Below, in pieces: positions 12,395 to 63,867 of a stretch of 64,000 bases of DNA (the stretch's first letter is position 1; each line of letters opens with the position of its first letter). The translations under genes were made by a program, and so were the position numbers. Below the pieces are notes generated by a model that was not told the DNA's origin, ran no database searches, and was given only the letters and a program-made list of their open reading frames with translations. Origin of the DNA: an uncultured Verrucomicrobia subdivision 3 bacterium (lineage in GTDB: Bacteria > Verrucomicrobiota > Verrucomicrobiia > Limisphaerales > UBA11358); assembly GCA_903865745.1 (NCBI GenBank), contig CAIPKV010000078.1, positions 1 to 64,000 on the forward strand, read 5' to 3'.

Positions 12395-12490
12395 TTGCTA
12401 ACCGAACCTGGCGTTACGCTCGTTCAAGGCAGACGCCGCCTCGGACCTTGGCCGACGCAGCCCGTAGCTCCAAGCAGTTTCCCCAGTCCT

Positions 12491-12658
12491 CTGGCTAAAC
12501 TGCTGGAAGGTCTGGCTAATCGCACCGATCATCTGGGCATTCTGCTGGATGACCTGGCTAAACTGCCCGATGGTCTGGCTAAACCCACCGGCCATCTGGC
12601 TAAACTGCCCGATGACCTGGCTAAACCCACAGATCATCTGGCTAAACCCACCAATGAT
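12491..12658 (+). repeat. 21-bp period array A (8 units)
   Basis: Eight consecutive 21-bp units beginning CTGGCTAA (start points 12491, 12512, 12533 and so on) differ by substitutions but keep exact spacing with no indels. The region between korB and the converging gene at 12813 (about 420 bp) holds nothing else recognisable. Because 21 is divisible by three, the array is open in frames on both strands (heptad peptides such as LAKLPDD or GGFSQMI), so open frames alone do not argue for coding. No clear internal dyad was found, unlike arrays B, D and E. Confidence 0.85.
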
Positions 12659-12812
12659 CCAGCGCCCACCATCAAACCGCCGGCTAAGCCCCCTAAACCT
12701 TCGTATAAACAACTCATTAATAACTATATACGCCTGAATCTAATGAACTGGCACCTGAAGATAGCCGGCGCGCCCACAATTCACCCTCAATTCACCCTAG
12801 TTGGCGCCCACC

Positions 12813-34002: not shown

Positions 34003-34296
34003 CGCACCAGAAAATCATCCCCTCGTACGAGTAGATCATCTGCTCGCACCAAATTATCATTTTCTCGTACGGTTGAAGCATTCTGCCATACGGCTGGGTG
34101 TTCCAACCGTATGGCTGGCTCGTCCAACCATACGGCTGACTCGTCCAACCGTACGGCTGGCTCGTCCAACCGTACGGCTGGAACCTCCAGCCGTATGGCT
34201 GAAGACTCCAGCCGCACCAGTAAATCATTTATTGGTGCGGATAAATCGTCCAGCCGTACCAGTAAACCTTCCAGCCGTACGGTTTTTAGTCAAAAG
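34003..34296 (+). repeat. 21-bp period array B (14 units, hairpin-forming)
   Basis: Fourteen units start every 21 bp from 34003 (typical core TACGGCTGGCTCGTCCAAC). Many units contain a 7-bp stem with a 3-nt loop at one fixed position, and the arms covary: GAGTAGA/TCTGCTC at 34029-34045, GGCTGGA/TCCAGCC at 34176-34192, CAGTAAA/TTTATTG at 34218-34234, GGTTGAA/TTCTGCC with one mismatch at 34071-34087. The intermediate units keep 5 of 7 pairs. The array begins 21 bp after the uup stop. It has open frames on both strands, but no ribosome binding site or consistent start. Confidence 0.88.
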
Positions 34297-44823: not shown

Positions 44824-45096
44824 GTTGCACCTCGGCAAATAGCCTTTCCAACTGGTCGTAAAGGCGTCGCAACCCGCCAAATACCCGTCGCAACCAGTCG
44901 GAAGGGCGTCGCAGCCCGTCAAATGCGCGTCGCAGGTCGTCGGCAGGCGTCCGCAAGTCGCCCAAACGACACAACAAGTCGGCGATAGTCCCACGCGAGT
45001 CGTATATAGTCCATCGCGAGTCGGACAGAGTTGACCGCAGTTCGTCGATATATTACCGCAAGTCGCTTGTGTTCCACCGCAGGCCGGTCATGCTGG
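44824..45096 (+). repeat. 21-bp period array C (13 units)
   Basis: Thirteen units of exactly 21 bp start at 44824, most with the core CGCAAGTCG or CGCAACC near the front. Units drift gradually along the array (GTCGCAACCC on the left to ACCGCAAGTC on the right) but register never slips. No consistent internal dyad was found. The array begins about 120 bp after the preceding gene; a perfect 6-bp hairpin ACTGGC/GCCAGT (44774-44790) lies between them. The 434-bp gap holds nothing else recognisable. Confidence 0.82.
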
Positions 45097-56013: not shown

Positions 56014-56793
56014 TCATTTCGGTAGATCAAACTCCAGCCGCGTACGCGAGCCGGTCTGGACATTGCGGATTTCCATCTCCTGCAATTCCCACTGGCCGTT
56101 GACCTTCTTAAACGATTTCGGCGCGAACTCCTTGAGCAACTGGCCGCGCGCATCGTAAGCCTCGGCCTGGACGATGCCGCCGCTGTCCTCATCGATCCAC
56201 GACACCACGCGCGAATAGTCGGGAAGATTGGGAAACGCATTGGGATTCGGATTGGTGCTTTCAAGGACTTGGCAGGCGCAATTGCGGCGGAATTCCTTTT
56301 TCAAGACCTTCTGCGCCGGCCAATGAAAAAACTCGAGCCCTAAATCCATCGCCCAAAAATCTCCGGCAAAATGCAACTTGTCCACAACTTCGGATCTTTT
56401 CAGGATATGCGGCAGGTGATTGGTCGAAACAAGCGTCATCTCATACTGATTGGAACCCGAACCATCATGTACAACCACGAGCTTTTCAAAAGCCACTTTA
56501 TTTGTGAGCAGCGTTTTTTGATAAACACTAGTCCAATTGGTTGGCGTCACGATGATTTCAAACTTCATTGGAATTTCTGAGCGTATTCCATTCTCATCGC
56601 GGATTTTTAATGTTCCAGTCAGCGTTGAATTGGTCGCCGGACGTTGTTCTAAAAACCGCTGCGCCAGTTTGCGCCCTTCAATTTCCGAGTCAGACAAGCC
56701 GTTCGTCGTCTGCGCCTTCGCGCCTAAGGCCAAAAACAGCACCAATCCAGCCATTAAACCGGTGGCGGGGCGGAATATCGTCCAGAACTTCAT
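56014..56793 (-). CDS. Outer-membrane lipoprotein-sorting-like protein
   Basis: This 259-residue exported protein has a signal peptide (residues 10-27, ending AKA). The mature part resembles the uncharacterised LolA-related family (outer membrane lipoprotein-sorting protein): EGRKLAQRFLEQRP, YEMTLVSTNHLPHILKRSE, AMDLGLEFFHWP and ARVVSWIDEDSGG-like RVVSWIDEDSGGIVQAEAYD. A lipid-binding periplasmic role is inferred from the fold. Confidence 0.75.
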   Translation of the reverse strand: MKFWTIFRPATGLMAGLVLFLALGAKAQTTNGLSDSEIEGRKLAQRFLEQRPATNSTLTGTLKIRDENGIRSEIPMKFEIIVTPTNWTSVYQKTLLTNKVAFEKLVVVHDGSGSNQYEMTLVSTNHLPHILKRSEVVDKLHFAGDFWAMDLGLEFFHWPAQKVLKKEFRRNCACQVLESTNPNPNAFPNLPDYSRVVSWIDEDSGGIVQAEAYDARGQLLKEFAPKSFKKVNGQWELQEMEIRNVQTGSRTRLEFDLPK

Positions 56794-56962: not shown

Positions 56963-57256
56963 AGATGCACGTGCATCTGCGTCATTTGGAGATGCAAATG
57001 CCGCAGGTGATGCATCACTTGCCGTAGTTGCATGTGCAAATGCGGCACTTGCACACGCAAATACGCCATCTGCACACGCAAGTACGTCATCTGCACGTGC
57101 AAATGGCGCATTTGCACGTTGGAATGGCTTAGTTGAAGCTCCAACTACGGCATTTGCACATGCAAATGCCCTAGATGCACGTGCAACTGCCGCGTTTGTA
57201 CATGCAAATGAGGCAGGTTGAGCGCCGTTTACCTCGGCTGCACGCTCAGCTGACGC
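56963..57256 (-). repeat. 21-bp period array D (14 units, palindromic)
   Basis: Fourteen exact 21-bp units start at 56963, most with the core TTTGCACGTGCAAA. Each unit carries a dyad whose arms covary: AGATG/CATCT in unit 1, ATTTG/CAAAT in units 2 and 10, GTGA/TCAC in unit 3, AGTTG/CAACT in unit 9, GCTG/CAGC in unit 14. The array lies 3' of lon, about 86 bp after its stop, and upstream of the LolA-like gene (strand given relative to lon). The remaining gap (56794-56962, 57257-57342) holds nothing else seen. Open frames on both strands (heptads such as LHVQMTY) are by-products of the period. Confidence 0.88.
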
Positions 57257-57342: not shown

Positions 57343-59754
57343 TTACTTCGCCGCGAGCGCCAGTTGCAGCACCTCGGATATCTGCTTCACGAAGTGTACC
57401 TTCAGCTTGGCGCGCACTTCCGCCGGCACATCCTCCCAATCCGGCCGGTTGCCCTCGGGCAGAATCACCTGCTTCACGCCGAAGCGCGACGCGGCAATCA
57501 CCTTTTCCTTGATGCCGCCCACGCGCATCACGCGCCCGCGCAAACTAATCTCGCCGGTCATCGCCGTGTCGGAACGCACGCGCCGCTTGCTCATGAGCGA
57601 GGCGAGCGCCGCGCAAATGGTCACGCCCGCGCTCGGTCCGTCCTTCGGTGTGGCCCCGGCGGGCACGTGAATGTGCAAATCGTATTTGCCGTAATCGTCA
57701 AAATCGAGGTCGAGCTTCTTTGCCTGACTGCGCAGATAGCTCACGGCGGTCTGCGCGCTCTCCTTCATCACTTCGCCGAGCGACCCGGTGAGAATCAAAC
57801 TGCCGCGCCCGCGCATCCGCGTGGCTTCGATGAAGAGGACGTCGCCGCCCACCGGCGTCCACGCCAGCCCGGTCGCAATGCCAATCTCATCAATCTTCTC
57901 CGCGCTCTCCAAAACGAACTTCGCGTGGCCGAGATAGCCTTTCACATCCTTCGGCTCCAGCTTGATGGTTTGCGCCGAACCGTTCAGGGCCACAATCTTG
58001 CGCGCGGCTTTGCGGGCGAGCGCGGCGATCTCGCGTTCGAGCTGGCGCACGCCGGCTTCGCGCGTGTATTCGCGGATCAATTCGCGCAGCGCGGCGTCAG
58101 AAATCTTCACGTCATTGCGCGTCAGGCCGTGTTCCTCCAACTGGCGCGGCACGAGGTAGCGCCGGGCAATCTGCAATTTCTCCGACTCGGTGTAGCTGGG
58201 CAGCTCGATGACTTCCAACCGGTCGCGCAGCGCGGGATGAATCGGGTCGAGCCAGTTCGCGGTGGCGATGAAGAGCACGCGCGACAAATCAAACGGCAGA
58301 TCGAGGTAATGATCGGTGAACGTGTGGTTCTGCGCGGGGTCGAGCACTTCGAGCAGCGCGGACGCCGGATCGCCGCGCACATCCGCACCGACCTTGTCGA
58401 GCTCGTCGAGCAGGATGACGGGATTGCGACTCTCAACGCGGCGCAGCGTCTGCAAAATCCGGCCCGGCAACGCGCCCACGTAAGTGCGGCGATGCCCGCG
58501 AATCTCCGCCTCGTCGCGCATGCCGCCGAGCGCGATGCGGGCGAACTTGCGGCCGAGCGCGTCGGCCACGCTTTTGCCGAGCGACGTCTTGCCCACACCG
58601 GGCGGGCCAACGAGGCAAAGGATCGGGCCTTTGATTTCTTTACGCCGCTTGAGCACGGCGAGAAATTCCAGCAGGCGGTCTTTCACCTTCGCGAGGCCGA
58701 AATGTTGGTCGTCTAAAATCTTCTCTGCCACCTTGAGGTCGAGCTTGTCCTCGGTCTCCTGCTGCCACGGCAGCGCGAGAATCCAGTCGAGGTAATTGCG
58801 CGAGACGCCGTATTCGGCGGCAGCGGGCGACGTCTGCTGCATCCGGTCAAGCTCCTGATTCGCGGCCTTGCGCGCTTCGTCAGGCAGCTTGGCCTTCTCA
58901 ATCTTCTCGCGCAGCGTGCGAATCTCGTTGGCGTTCGGGTCGGTGTCGCCGAGCTCGCGCTGGATGACGCGCATCTGTTCGCGCAGGAAAAAGTCGCGTT
59001 GCGTCTTGGAGATGTTGGACGCCACGTCGTTCTGGATCTTGGAACTTAGGTTCAGCACCTCCTGTTCGCGGCTCAGGAGCGGCAGCAGCTTTTGCAAACG
59101 CTCGCGGACGGATATGGTTTCGAGCAACTTCTGCTTATCCGCCAGCGGCAGGCCGAGGTTCGCGGCGATGAGGTCGGCGAAGTGGCCGGGATGCTCGTTG
59201 TTGAGCGCGGCAATCTTGACCTGATCCGATAGCGCGGTGGAAACTTTGGCAATCTCCTCGAACTGCTTATGCGCATTGCGCAGCATCGCCTGCAACTCGA
59301 CGGAATCCTCCGTCTCATCGCGCAGCAGCTCGTAGCTCGCGCGCAGATACGGGTCCGCCGGCTGAAACTTATCGAGCCGGATGCGCCACAGGCCTTCAAC
59401 CAGAATGCGCACGGTGCCGTCGGGAAACTTCACCATCTTATTTAGCCGGGACACGCAACCCACCCGGTGCAGGTCATCCGGTCCCGGCTCGGGGACATCA
59501 GGATTCAGCTGCAACACGGCGGCAAACAGGCGATCGCCCGCGACGAGGTCGTCCACGAGTTTGAGGCTGGGGCCGGTCTCGACGAGCAGCGGCACGACCG
59601 CGCCCGGAAATATCACTATGTCCGAAAGGCCGAGGATGGGCAGGAGTTCCGGCAGCGTACGCGACGACACGCGCCCCGGCGCCTCGCCCTTTTCGCCGGT
59701 GCTGAGGATGCTGACAAACTCTGTCTCGGCCGATTTTGTCGTCGTATTATCCAT
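57343..59754 (-). CDS. lon: ATP-dependent protease Lon
   Basis: This 803-residue serine-lysine AAA+ protease degrades misfolded and regulatory proteins. N-terminal substrate domain (LPELLPILGLSDIVIFPGAV), AAA+ domain with Walker A CLVGPPGVGKTSLGKSVADA and VILLDELDKVG, and the C-terminal catalytic dyad Ser in PKDGPSAGVTICAAL and Lys in GGIKEKVIAASR. The length is typical. It follows hsp20 by 44 bp, so both are likely cotranscribed as part of a stress response. No CIRCE element was seen. Confidence 0.97.
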   Translation of the reverse strand: MDNTTTKSAETEFVSILSTGEKGEAPGRVSSRTLPELLPILGLSDIVIFPGAVVPLLVETGPSLKLVDDLVAGDRLFAAVLQLNPDVPEPGPDDLHRVGCVSRLNKMVKFPDGTVRILVEGLWRIRLDKFQPADPYLRASYELLRDETEDSVELQAMLRNAHKQFEEIAKVSTALSDQVKIAALNNEHPGHFADLIAANLGLPLADKQKLLETISVRERLQKLLPLLSREQEVLNLSSKIQNDVASNISKTQRDFFLREQMRVIQRELGDTDPNANEIRTLREKIEKAKLPDEARKAANQELDRMQQTSPAAAEYGVSRNYLDWILALPWQQETEDKLDLKVAEKILDDQHFGLAKVKDRLLEFLAVLKRRKEIKGPILCLVGPPGVGKTSLGKSVADALGRKFARIALGGMRDEAEIRGHRRTYVGALPGRILQTLRRVESRNPVILLDELDKVGADVRGDPASALLEVLDPAQNHTFTDHYLDLPFDLSRVLFIATANWLDPIHPALRDRLEVIELPSYTESEKLQIARRYLVPRQLEEHGLTRNDVKISDAALRELIREYTREAGVRQLEREIAALARKAARKIVALNGSAQTIKLEPKDVKGYLGHAKFVLESAEKIDEIGIATGLAWTPVGGDVLFIEATRMRGRGSLILTGSLGEVMKESAQTAVSYLRSQAKKLDLDFDDYGKYDLHIHVPAGATPKDGPSAGVTICAALASLMSKRRVRSDTAMTGEISLRGRVMRVGGIKEKVIAASRFGVKQVILPEGNRPDWEDVPAEVRAKLKVHFVKQISEVLQLALAAK

Positions 59755-61072: not shown

Positions 61073-62557
61073 ATGCAAAACCAACTTCAACCTTACCCCA
61101 AACATTACTGCGGCGTCTTTGGCGTCTTTGGCCATCCCAATGCCGCCGAGCTGGCCTACTTCGGCCTCTACGCCCTGCAACATCGCGGCCAGGAAAGCGC
61201 GGGCATTGTCACTTGCAACGGCGGGAAATTCTATAAGCACCACGGCATGGGCCTCGTGCCCCAGATCTTTAACGACCCCAAGATTCTCCACGAACTCGTC
61301 GGCGACCGCGCCATCGGCCACACGCGCTATTCCACCACCGGTTCGTCCAATCTCCGCAACGCCCAGCCGCTCACCGTCGACTGCGCGCGCGGCCAGATCG
61401 CCGTCGCGCACAACGGCAACCTGACCAACGCCGCCGTCCTCCGCGACGAGCTCGAATCCCGCGGCCTCGTCTTCCAGACCTCGGTGGATAGCGAAATCAT
61501 TATCATGATGCTCGCACAGCCCGAATTGGGCGGCGTCGCCAACTCGCTCGTGCAGACCTTGCGCCGCATCGAAGGCGCCTATTCCCTCGTCATCATGACG
61601 GAGAAAGAGCTCATCGGCGCGCGCGATCCGCATGGCTTCCGCCCGCTCTCCATTGGCAAGACGGCCGAGGGCGCCTATGTGCTGTCCAGCGAGACCACGG
61701 CCTTCGACCTTATCCATGCGCGCTTTATCCGCGACGTTGAGCCGGGCGAAATTGTCATCATCAACGAGAAAGGTCTGACCAGCATCCAAGCCTGGCCGGA
61801 ACATCAGAAGCGCGCGTTCTGCGTCTTCGAATACGTTTATTTCGCGCGGCCCGACAGCGTCCTCAACGGCCACAGCGTTTACGATGTCCGCAAAGAGATG
61901 GGCCGCCAGCTCGCCCGCGAGCACAACGTCAAGGCCGACCTCGTCATCCCCGTCCCCGACAGCGGCGTGTGCGCCGCGATGGGTTACTCCGAAGAGTCCG
62001 GCATTCCCTACGAGATGGCATTCATCCGCAACCATTACGTCGGGCGCAGCTTCCTCCAGCCGACGCAGCTCATTCGCGACTTCAACGTCCGCGTGAAGCT
62101 GAATCTCATCGAGTCCCTCGTCAAAGACAAGAGCGTCATCATCGTGGACGATTCCATTGTGCGCGGGACCACCTGCCGTTCCCGCGTGAAGACCCTCAAG
62201 GAAGCCGGCGCGCGCGCGGTGCACGTGGCGGTGAGCTGCCCCCCGCACCAATTCCCCTGCGTGTACGGCATAGATTTTCCCGATCGCAGCAAACTCATGG
62301 CCGCGAACAACACGGTGGATGAGATTCGCAAATATCTGAACGCCGACTCCCTGCATTATCTCTCGCAAGCCGGGATGGTGGCTGCCACCGGTCAGGCGAA
62401 GGAAGCGTTCTGCATGGCCTGTTACGATGGCAAATATCCGGTGCCCTACGATCCGCTGCTGGACAAGCACATCATCGAGCGCCGCCGCAAGCTGACGCAG
62501 ACCCTCGGCGAAGCCGCCGCGAAGGAAGACGCCCAAGGCAAGCTGCTGAAAGTCTGA
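61073..62557 (+). CDS. purF: Amidophosphoribosyltransferase
   Basis: This enzyme transfers glutamine ammonia to PRPP, the first step of purine synthesis. ATG 61073 gives 494 residues with a 12-residue propeptide before the nucleophile Cys13 (HYCGVFGVFG), the Ntn-hydrolase arrangement. ESAGIVTCNGGKF and the PRPP-binding VIIVDDSIVRGTT are present. Cysteines in AFCVFEYVYF, FPCVYGIDF and FCMACYDG fit the [4Fe-4S]-containing Bacillus-type. It is separate from purSQL. Array E follows. Confidence 0.96.
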   Translation: MQNQLQPYPKHYCGVFGVFGHPNAAELAYFGLYALQHRGQESAGIVTCNGGKFYKHHGMGLVPQIFNDPKILHELVGDRAIGHTRYSTTGSSNLRNAQPLTVDCARGQIAVAHNGNLTNAAVLRDELESRGLVFQTSVDSEIIIMMLAQPELGGVANSLVQTLRRIEGAYSLVIMTEKELIGARDPHGFRPLSIGKTAEGAYVLSSETTAFDLIHARFIRDVEPGEIVIINEKGLTSIQAWPEHQKRAFCVFEYVYFARPDSVLNGHSVYDVRKEMGRQLAREHNVKADLVIPVPDSGVCAAMGYSEESGIPYEMAFIRNHYVGRSFLQPTQLIRDFNVRVKLNLIESLVKDKSVIIVDDSIVRGTTCRSRVKTLKEAGARAVHVAVSCPPHQFPCVYGIDFPDRSKLMAANNTVDEIRKYLNADSLHYLSQAGMVAATGQAKEAFCMACYDGKYPVPYDPLLDKHIIERRRKLTQTLGEAAAKEDAQGKLLKV

Positions 62558-62600
62558 GCTCCCGCCGTCCGTCCGCAATCCCCGGTGACCCATTCTGAGG

Positions 62601-62978
62601 CTCCCGCCCTCAATTCCTAACCTCCCGCACCGAGTGCGGGGACCCCCGCGTTCCGTCCCGATGCTCCCGCAGTCAGTGCGGGGACTCCCGCACGGATTCC
62701 GGGAGCTCCCGCAGCAAGTCCGGGAACTCCCGCATCCGGTCCGGGGGTTCCCGCATCCGGTCCGGGGGTTCCCGCAGCTAGTCCCGATGCTCCCGCACGG
62801 CGTGCGGGGACACCGCCATTCAGTCCCGGTGTGCCGCGACGTGGTCGCGGTGTGCCGCCACCAGTTCGCGGCGTGCCGCCATGCGTTCGCGGTGCACCGG
62901 CACGGCGTCGCGGCATGCCGCCATGCGTTCGCGGCGTGCCGCCACCGAGTCCCGTTGTGCCGCCACGGCGTCGCGGCG
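62601..62978 (+). repeat. 21-bp period array E (18 units, hairpin-forming)
   Basis: Eighteen exact 21-bp units from 62601 (front half CTCCCGCA, back half TGCCGCCA). Most units can form a hairpin and the arms covary along the array: CCCGCA/TGCGGG (62624-62640 and twice more), CTCCCG/CGGGAG, TCCCG/CGGGA, CACCG/CGGTG, CCGCGA/TCGCGG, GCCGC/GCGGC. It begins 43 bp after purF and ends 211 bp before deoC. The rest of the 632-bp gap (62979-63189) shows nothing recognisable. Open frames run through both strands. Confidence 0.9.
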
Positions 62979-63189
62979 CTTAGGTTTGGCGCCCCGATTC
63001 CTCGTAGCCGACCTCGAAACCAACCACTTACGCAGAATAGGGCTTTTTACAAGCTCCCGACCCATCCCCGAACCACTTGAAGCCCTCCGCTTAAGCGGGG
63101 AAGCACTCCGGTCCGAAACGCGATTGGTTGGAAACCGAATTGACGCCGTTTGGCTTCGGCTCCAGAATCAGCGCCCTTAAATATCTGAC

Positions 63190-63867
63190 ATGAACTTTAC
63201 CCCCGAACAGCTCGCGGCCTACATTGATTCCACCCTGCTCAAGCCCGATGCCAGCGCCGCCCAAATCGAGCAGCTCTGCACCGAGGCGCGCGAACATGGC
63301 TTCTACGCCGTGTGCGTCAACGGCGCGTGGGTGGCCGCCGCCCGCCATTTTCTGGAGGACAGCGAGGTGAAGGTGGTCAGCGTGGTCGGCTTCCCGCTCG
63401 GCGCGCTCGCCGCCGATGTCAAACGCTTCGAGACCGAGGTGGCCATCGATGACGGCGCGCATGAGCTTGATATGGTGCTGAATATCGCGCGGCTGAAGGC
63501 GGGCGACGACAAGTTTATTTTTCGCGAGCTATGCGATGTCGTGGAAGCCGCCGATGAGCGCCCGGTGAAGGTGATTTTGGAAACGTGCCTGCTGACGGAT
63601 GCGGAAAAGGTCCGCGCCTGCAAGCTGGCCATCGAGAGCGGCGCGAAGTTCGTCAAGACTTCGACCGGCTTCAATATCGCCGGCGCGTCGGTGACCGATG
63701 TGACGCTGCTACGCCAAACCGTCGGGGAAAAGTTCGGCGTGAAAGCGTCCGGGGGCATCCGCGATACGCTCACGGCCCTGGCGATGATTGAAGCGGGCGC
63801 CACGCGGATTGGAACTTCCAACGGAGTGGCCATCGTGAAGGGCCTGGTCGGCGGCGGAAACAACTGA
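63190..63867 (+). CDS. deoC: Deoxyribose-phosphate aldolase
   Basis: This 225-residue enzyme cleaves 2-deoxyribose-5-phosphate to acetaldehyde and glyceraldehyde-3-phosphate. The Schiff-base Lys lies in GAKFVKTSTGF and the second active-site Lys in VGEKFGVKASGGIRD. YIDSTLLKPDAS and SVVGFPLGALAADVK are further family marks. It follows array E and is convergent with the pyrB-like gene at the right edge. Confidence 0.95.
   Translation: MNFTPEQLAAYIDSTLLKPDASAAQIEQLCTEAREHGFYAVCVNGAWVAAARHFLEDSEVKVVSVVGFPLGALAADVKRFETEVAIDDGAHELDMVLNIARLKAGDDKFIFRELCDVVEAADERPVKVILETCLLTDAEKVRACKLAIESGAKFVKTSTGFNIAGASVTDVTLLRQTVGEKFGVKASGGIRDTLTALAMIEAGATRIGTSNGVAIVKGLVGGGNN

Follow-up and report, generated by a model that had tools for sequence, protein, structure and literature searches.

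The window analysed here is a stretch of 64,000 nucleotides from an uncultured Verrucomicrobia subdivision 3 bacterium and contains five tandem arrays (A to E), all with a lag of 21 bp and with no strand assigned. Array E lies in a gap of 632 bp (62558 to 63189) between purF (61073 to 62557, plus strand), named from its sequence as encoding amidophosphoribosyltransferase, and a deoC-like gene (63190 to 63867, plus strand), named deoxyribose-phosphate aldolase by sequence resemblance. Array A (12488 to 12663) consists of 21-bp units of the CTGGCTAAACTGCCCGATGAC type and has an inverted near-copy at L060:5061-5330, array B (34003 to 34278) contains 21-bp units with CAGCCGTACGGCTG palindromes, and array C (44849 to 45065) is built of 21-bp units in which dyad symmetry is not significant. 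Array D (56963 to 57235), with ATTTGCACATGCAAAT palindromes in its 21-bp units, occupies the gap that separates lon (57343-59754) from the gene that follows (56014-56793), both on the minus strand. An Rfam scan of the window returned only a tRNA, the arrays matching no structured RNA family.

Array E had been described in the initial annotation as 18 hairpin units at a fixed 21-bp spacing, with stems that shift progressively from one end to the other as a result of local copying between neighbours and of selection to keep each hairpin. The regular spacing was borne out, as row-wise reading and TRF resolved 62600-62977 into 18 rows of exactly 21 bp with zero indels, and autocorrelation gave a lag-21 identity of 0.66-0.81 with raised values otherwise only at multiples of 21. 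A stem of 5-7 bp is possible in most units. Relative to dinucleotide-shuffled controls the array also folds far better on both strands, as the initial annotation had anticipated, with -212.3 vs -183.0 +/- 5.7 kcal/mol on the plus strand (z -5.2) and -221.9 vs -191.6 kcal/mol on the minus strand (z -5.0).

Composite structure of array E

Instead of a progressive gradient, the unit-by-unit matrix revealed two homogeneous blocks, a left one of 10 units (62600 to 62809, consensus approximately CTCCCGCANNNNNGTCCGGGGA) and a right one of 8 units (62810 to 62977, consensus approximately GTGCCGCCANNNNGTCGCGGC), with an identity of 0.68 within blocks vs 0.49 between them and the sharpest break at 62810. 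The stems CACCG/CGGTG and CCGCGA/TCGCGG, taken before as intermediate steps, are only single units at this boundary (62810 and 62831). A homologue of the left block is the array at L046:7504 (G000:C62:67524), with 78% identity over 149 bp, and this homology stops at 62814, the block border; for the right block no strong match was found elsewhere in the genome. The break together with the end of the homology at the same border indicates that array E is a composite of two arrays, so that the change in stems along it would be better explained, on these alignments, as their junction. Two further arrays resemble array E in being composite, L179:10481-10995, in which a CGGGGTATACCCCGC block is followed by a CGGAACCCCTCACGC block, and L183:9064-9558.

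Local copying between neighbouring units found no backing inside either block, where adjacent units were no more alike than units in shuffled order (0.661 vs 0.662, p 0.55, and 0.673 vs 0.703, p 0.88). Among 47 arrays an adjacency effect reached p<0.05 in 14, and similarity peaked not between neighbours but between units two apart, giving a higher-order pattern of 42 bp.

Period and spacing of the arrays across the genome

The array survey covered 1.087 Mb, that is 30% of the 3.63-Mb draft genome, some of its contigs being masked. In this sample plain autocorrelation at lag 21 yielded 64 regions, which merge into 55, vs 0-4 for any other lag between 8 and 40. Once three microsatellites and two coding cases (L165:5570 and L147:2761) are set aside, 50 non-coding arrays are left, which consist of about 7-21 head-to-tail units (median length 218 bp, around ten units) and fall by BLAST into 39 sequence families. 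When TRF was run with no preset period and with tolerance for indels, it assigned period 21 to 49 arrays and period 22 to one, with none at 19, 20 or 23. Unlike in usual minisatellites, the period is thus uniform across loci (21 in 49/50 arrays of period 19-23), and the sub-period at 10-11 bp is weak. The single exception, L166:11939-12121 (G000:C10), is a rigid 22-bp array of the CCCTGCCTAGGAGGTATGGATA type with about eight units. Tandem repeats of period 7 were seen as well, sixteen in the sampled genome (L150:10390, L044:6106 and others; e.g., GAATTTT), and are frequent in relatives too (29 in 1.53 Mb).

The constancy of the spacing stands against the divergence of the sequence. By wrap-around profile alignment 640/662 unit steps measure exactly 21 bp, the exceptions being mostly first or last steps, whereas 4273/13734 positions (31%), counted over an almost identical set of arrays, mismatch the array consensus and units within an array are only about 60% alike; as array detection favours regular arrays the contrast is somewhat inflated, a concern limited by the independent TRF scan. 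Small indels generally account for roughly 5-10% of bacterial mutations, a figure that does not come from this genus, and at that rate a few hundred would be expected, vs about ten internal ones seen. Adjacent columns are linked over approximately four bases (excess mutual information of 0.158 bits at separation 1, falling to about 0.035 by separation 6-8), which indicates that the differences between units come in short blocks and not at single sites.

Dispersal, gene context and occurrence in relatives

Several arrays have near-copies at other loci, in direct or inverted orientation; the alignment covers the array plus some tens of bp on either side, and the flanks further out are unrelated. 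These copies differ by indels of 21 or 42 bp; gaps of 3-4 bp are also present, mostly in the flanks or as compensated pairs. The pair L045/L181 is exceptional in sharing longer flanks, and the L148/L181 arrays lie upstream of genes that start alike. Enrichment of k-mers in the array flanks provided no convincing shared motif or terminal repeat marking a transposon, and no transposase common to the arrays was found. At three loci (L045:376, L172:1378 and L181:124) the arrays share a flank that contains GGGGACATTTCGYCATATC and in part extends further, which may mark a composite mobile element. A search of the sampled genome for isolated 21-bp dimers outside arrays yielded no excess over a baseline of about 101 per lag, which stems from the N-masked contigs L176, L177 and L184, and birth of the arrays by a general process of 21-bp duplication was rejected on this ground.

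According to a crude gene model trained on the same genome, the arrays are intergenic in tandem (++ and --), convergent (+-) and divergent (-+) gaps alike. Their neighbours are diverse and mostly housekeeping (lon, purF and others, named by sequence resemblance), with no recurrent gene class beside them and one small paralogue group that recurs. Arrays of two families at L148:2406, L181:17457 and L046:7504 lie upstream of genes whose proteins start with MPxDxxPP, the L046 and L181 copies being 51% identical.

An array after purF was found in none of 29 relatives. The purF-deoC gap measures 8 bp or less in four congeners with the same gene order, vs 632 bp in the window, and in a fifth congener it measures about 120 bp and contains no array. 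Likewise, none of 19 relatives' loci showed an array after lon, the next gene standing close behind wherever it is preserved, and the junction measures about 24 bp in L062, the nearest PurF relative of the window. A further congener, the isolate B-2_bin-237 (L066), carries a 21-bp array (L066:5995-6215) at the same lon junction as array D, with no similarity to array D beyond chance; either two unrelated arrays came to occupy this junction separately, or a single old array has diverged so far that its origin is no longer recognizable. Arrays of 21 bp also occur in G014, G013 and G007 at a lower density, of the order of one per 50-100 kb, and G007 contains two related arrays at different places (L138 and L252). 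The relatives were sampled thinly (25-225 kb each), and in these small samples eleven other congeners gave none. In the PurF tree the five array bearers do not form one clade; three changes are needed, two of them forced by well-supported branches. By these comparisons the arrays are lineage-restricted and patchy, and the purF and lon junctions may be read as recent gains.

Possible explanations: selected spacing, neutral repetition or hairpins

Our preferred reading, held tentatively, is that array E is one instance of a satellite-like, non-coding element restricted to this lineage, which disperses and whose two-turn spacing is under selection. Its unit measures exactly 21 bp, two turns of the helix, and would often combine two half-units of opposite orientation, offset from each other by about one turn. 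Pre-formed arrays would be copied or inserted between genes, and their sequence would then change fast as short blocks and whole units are exchanged in both orientations. Selection would meanwhile remove out-of-phase indels, because a lattice of sites on one face of the helix matters. Such a lattice might serve a protein that binds or bends DNA and assembles along it, or local DNA topology, and the hairpins would then be mainly dyads in DNA. From the spacing we infer selection on helical phase and hence a role at the DNA level; the spacing count and TRF place the sites on one helix face at fixed distances, as in a DNA-protein lattice, and the array class points to an element that spaces DNA more than to a series of RNA hairpins each maintained individually. 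Consensus units are palindromic at 13.5/21 columns on average vs 10.9 by chance, with significance in 20/53 arrays; as a counterpoint, this strict test leaves more than half of the arrays with no significant dyad, so that a common binding mode is not evident. The existence of 39 unrelated families implies that any partner must read spacing or shape and not sequence. The depletion of indels could also stem, in the absence of selection, from a mutational process that substitutes blocks and produces no small indels. A stronger form of the proposal appears less likely than not to us, namely that this genome carries of the order of 150 or more arrays (extrapolated from 50 in 30%) that are free in sequence, kept at 21 bp by purifying selection and recognized by their geometry, for instance as lattices on which a DNA-coating or DNA-bending protein assembles.

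The main rival, which has an appreciable though lesser chance of being right, holds that these are neutral or selfish minisatellites in which one ancestral 21-bp array was copied around, so that the period is inherited and not selected, whole units are gained and lost by recombination and replication slippage, and the palindromes result from template switches between strands. This would account for copies that differ by exactly 21 or 42 bp, for the 42-bp higher-order pattern, for mirrored arm variants with little covariation within units, which fit inverted exchange, and for the lineage-restricted, patchy presence. It is at odds with the near absence of indels of 1-2 bp in 39 families with a within-array mismatch of 31%, and with the missing excess of short 21-bp duplications that could have served as birth intermediates. 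Neutral satellites account for dispersal as well as does the selected spacing that we prefer, but they are the poorer explanation of the spacing lock. If the spacing is selected, the arrays offer a natural experiment in which geometry, not sequence, defines a DNA element; even if they are neutral, they show the copying of modules between gene junctions and the origin and mixing of dyads within a tandem lattice.

The initial interpretation survived only in part: the arrays do have dyad potential, but selection to keep each hairpin was not supported. In a lenient test, arm pairing exceeded that of column-permuted units in about 60% of arrays, and 65-69% of arrays fold better than versions with permuted unit columns (z below -2), with both strands alike. 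In array E, arms pair at 0.77 of positions within the same unit vs 0.74 when they are taken from the neighbouring unit, and over all arrays the excess pairing of dyad-partner columns relative to other columns is 0.017 +/- 0.009, so that the compensatory stem changes which characterize a structured RNA were not observed. Mismatches of the G-U type, read on the transcribed strand in tandem gene contexts, are about as frequent as those of the A-C type (175 vs 165, p 0.63). The second-commonest bases are complementary between arms in 63/94 cases vs 35.7 expected (p 1e-8); the same variants thus occur in both arms and nearly independently, a pattern of dimer half-sites or of unit exchange in two orientations, and not that of hairpins maintained one by one. 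For these reasons transcribed arrays of RNA hairpins at mRNA ends, selected for stability, termination or as a multi-site scaffold, seem improbable, in spite of the folding of array E at z about -5 and of the share of arrays that beat column permutation: the two strands fold equally well, G-U is not favoured over A-C, dyad partners barely covary, loop lengths vary between zero (AGCAGCTGCT, CAGCCGTACGGCTG) and about nine bases, even the lenient test detects no significant dyad in some 40% of arrays, and arrays are found in divergent promoter gaps and not only after genes. Slightly less probable still is that the arrays act like operators, each of them serving a dimeric DNA-binding regulator of its own. 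The palindromic consensus, the same degenerate spectrum in both half-sites and the independent arms do have the look of dimer sites, and these lie on one helix face, but 39 families would demand dozens of regulators, the neighbours are mostly housekeeping genes with no repeated class, and arrays also occur between convergent genes and downstream of genes.

Two other explanations carry very little weight. As 21 bp corresponds to seven codons and 47/55 arrays have at least one open frame, repeats encoding seven amino acids can be envisaged; the open frames vary from array to array and occur on either strand, and the codon-phase test, in which six pairs of near-copies had roughly equal numbers of substitutions in all three phases, went against this reading, which we consider highly implausible. 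An artefact of assembly or binning, least plausible of all, might be suspected because the host appears to be a metagenome-assembled genome, but the units all differ from one another and lie amid ordinary genes, and the same architecture is present in other assemblies (G007, G013, G014 and the isolate B-2_bin-237).

Relation to known repeat systems

The arrays consist of head-to-tail units in the 10-100 bp range in non-coding DNA, by which minisatellites are defined, and they share with bacterial minisatellites and VNTRs the intergenic location and, judging from copies at different loci that differ by 21 or 42 bp, probably the differences in unit number. In contrast to these, a single exact period of 21 bp is common to dozens of unrelated sequences, with units about 60% alike and small indels nearly absent. 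Extragenic palindromes of the REP/BIME/REPIN type, tagged by GTAG and CGTC, are known also in a Verrucomicrobium, Opitutus terrae (PMC3733652), and are likewise short, extragenic and clustered. Unlike REP/RAYT elements, the arrays have no common sequence (39 families among 50). Among array consensus units the tag GTAG appears in 1/50 vs 7.3 expected and CGTC in 5/50 vs 9.6 expected, and no Y1_Tnp was detected in the array-bearing G007 (91% complete), while G000 has two and other relatives up to nine. With both tags below chance, a bearer devoid of Y1 transposase and 39 families, membership of the arrays in REP/RAYT was rejected.

The nearest described cases are the TAACTGA heptamer direct repeats of Beggiatoaceae and Cyanobacteria (PMC4679880) and the intergenic tandem repeats remarked on in freshwater (lake) Planctomycetota (PMC9426551). 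The former also form many intergenic sets of direct repeats per genome with a patchy distribution among relatives; they differ in having a fixed 7-bp sequence in 2-6 copies per set, located mainly upstream of start codons. No description of a genome with dozens of unrelated arrays at one exact two-turn period was found in the literature searched, an absence that is not proof of novelty.

A link between periodicity and the helical repeat is shared with the phasing of A-tracts and DNA curvature, for which A-tract signals at 10-11 bp across genomes are described (PMC3940949, PMC4132750). The arrays are distinguished by the repetition of whole 21-bp units with no requirement for an A-tract. Runs of A/T spaced by about 10-12 bp (AAAAACGACGCTTTTCGACCAAAAACG), which may be phased A-tracts, were observed at window:56800-56965 and on one side of several other arrays.
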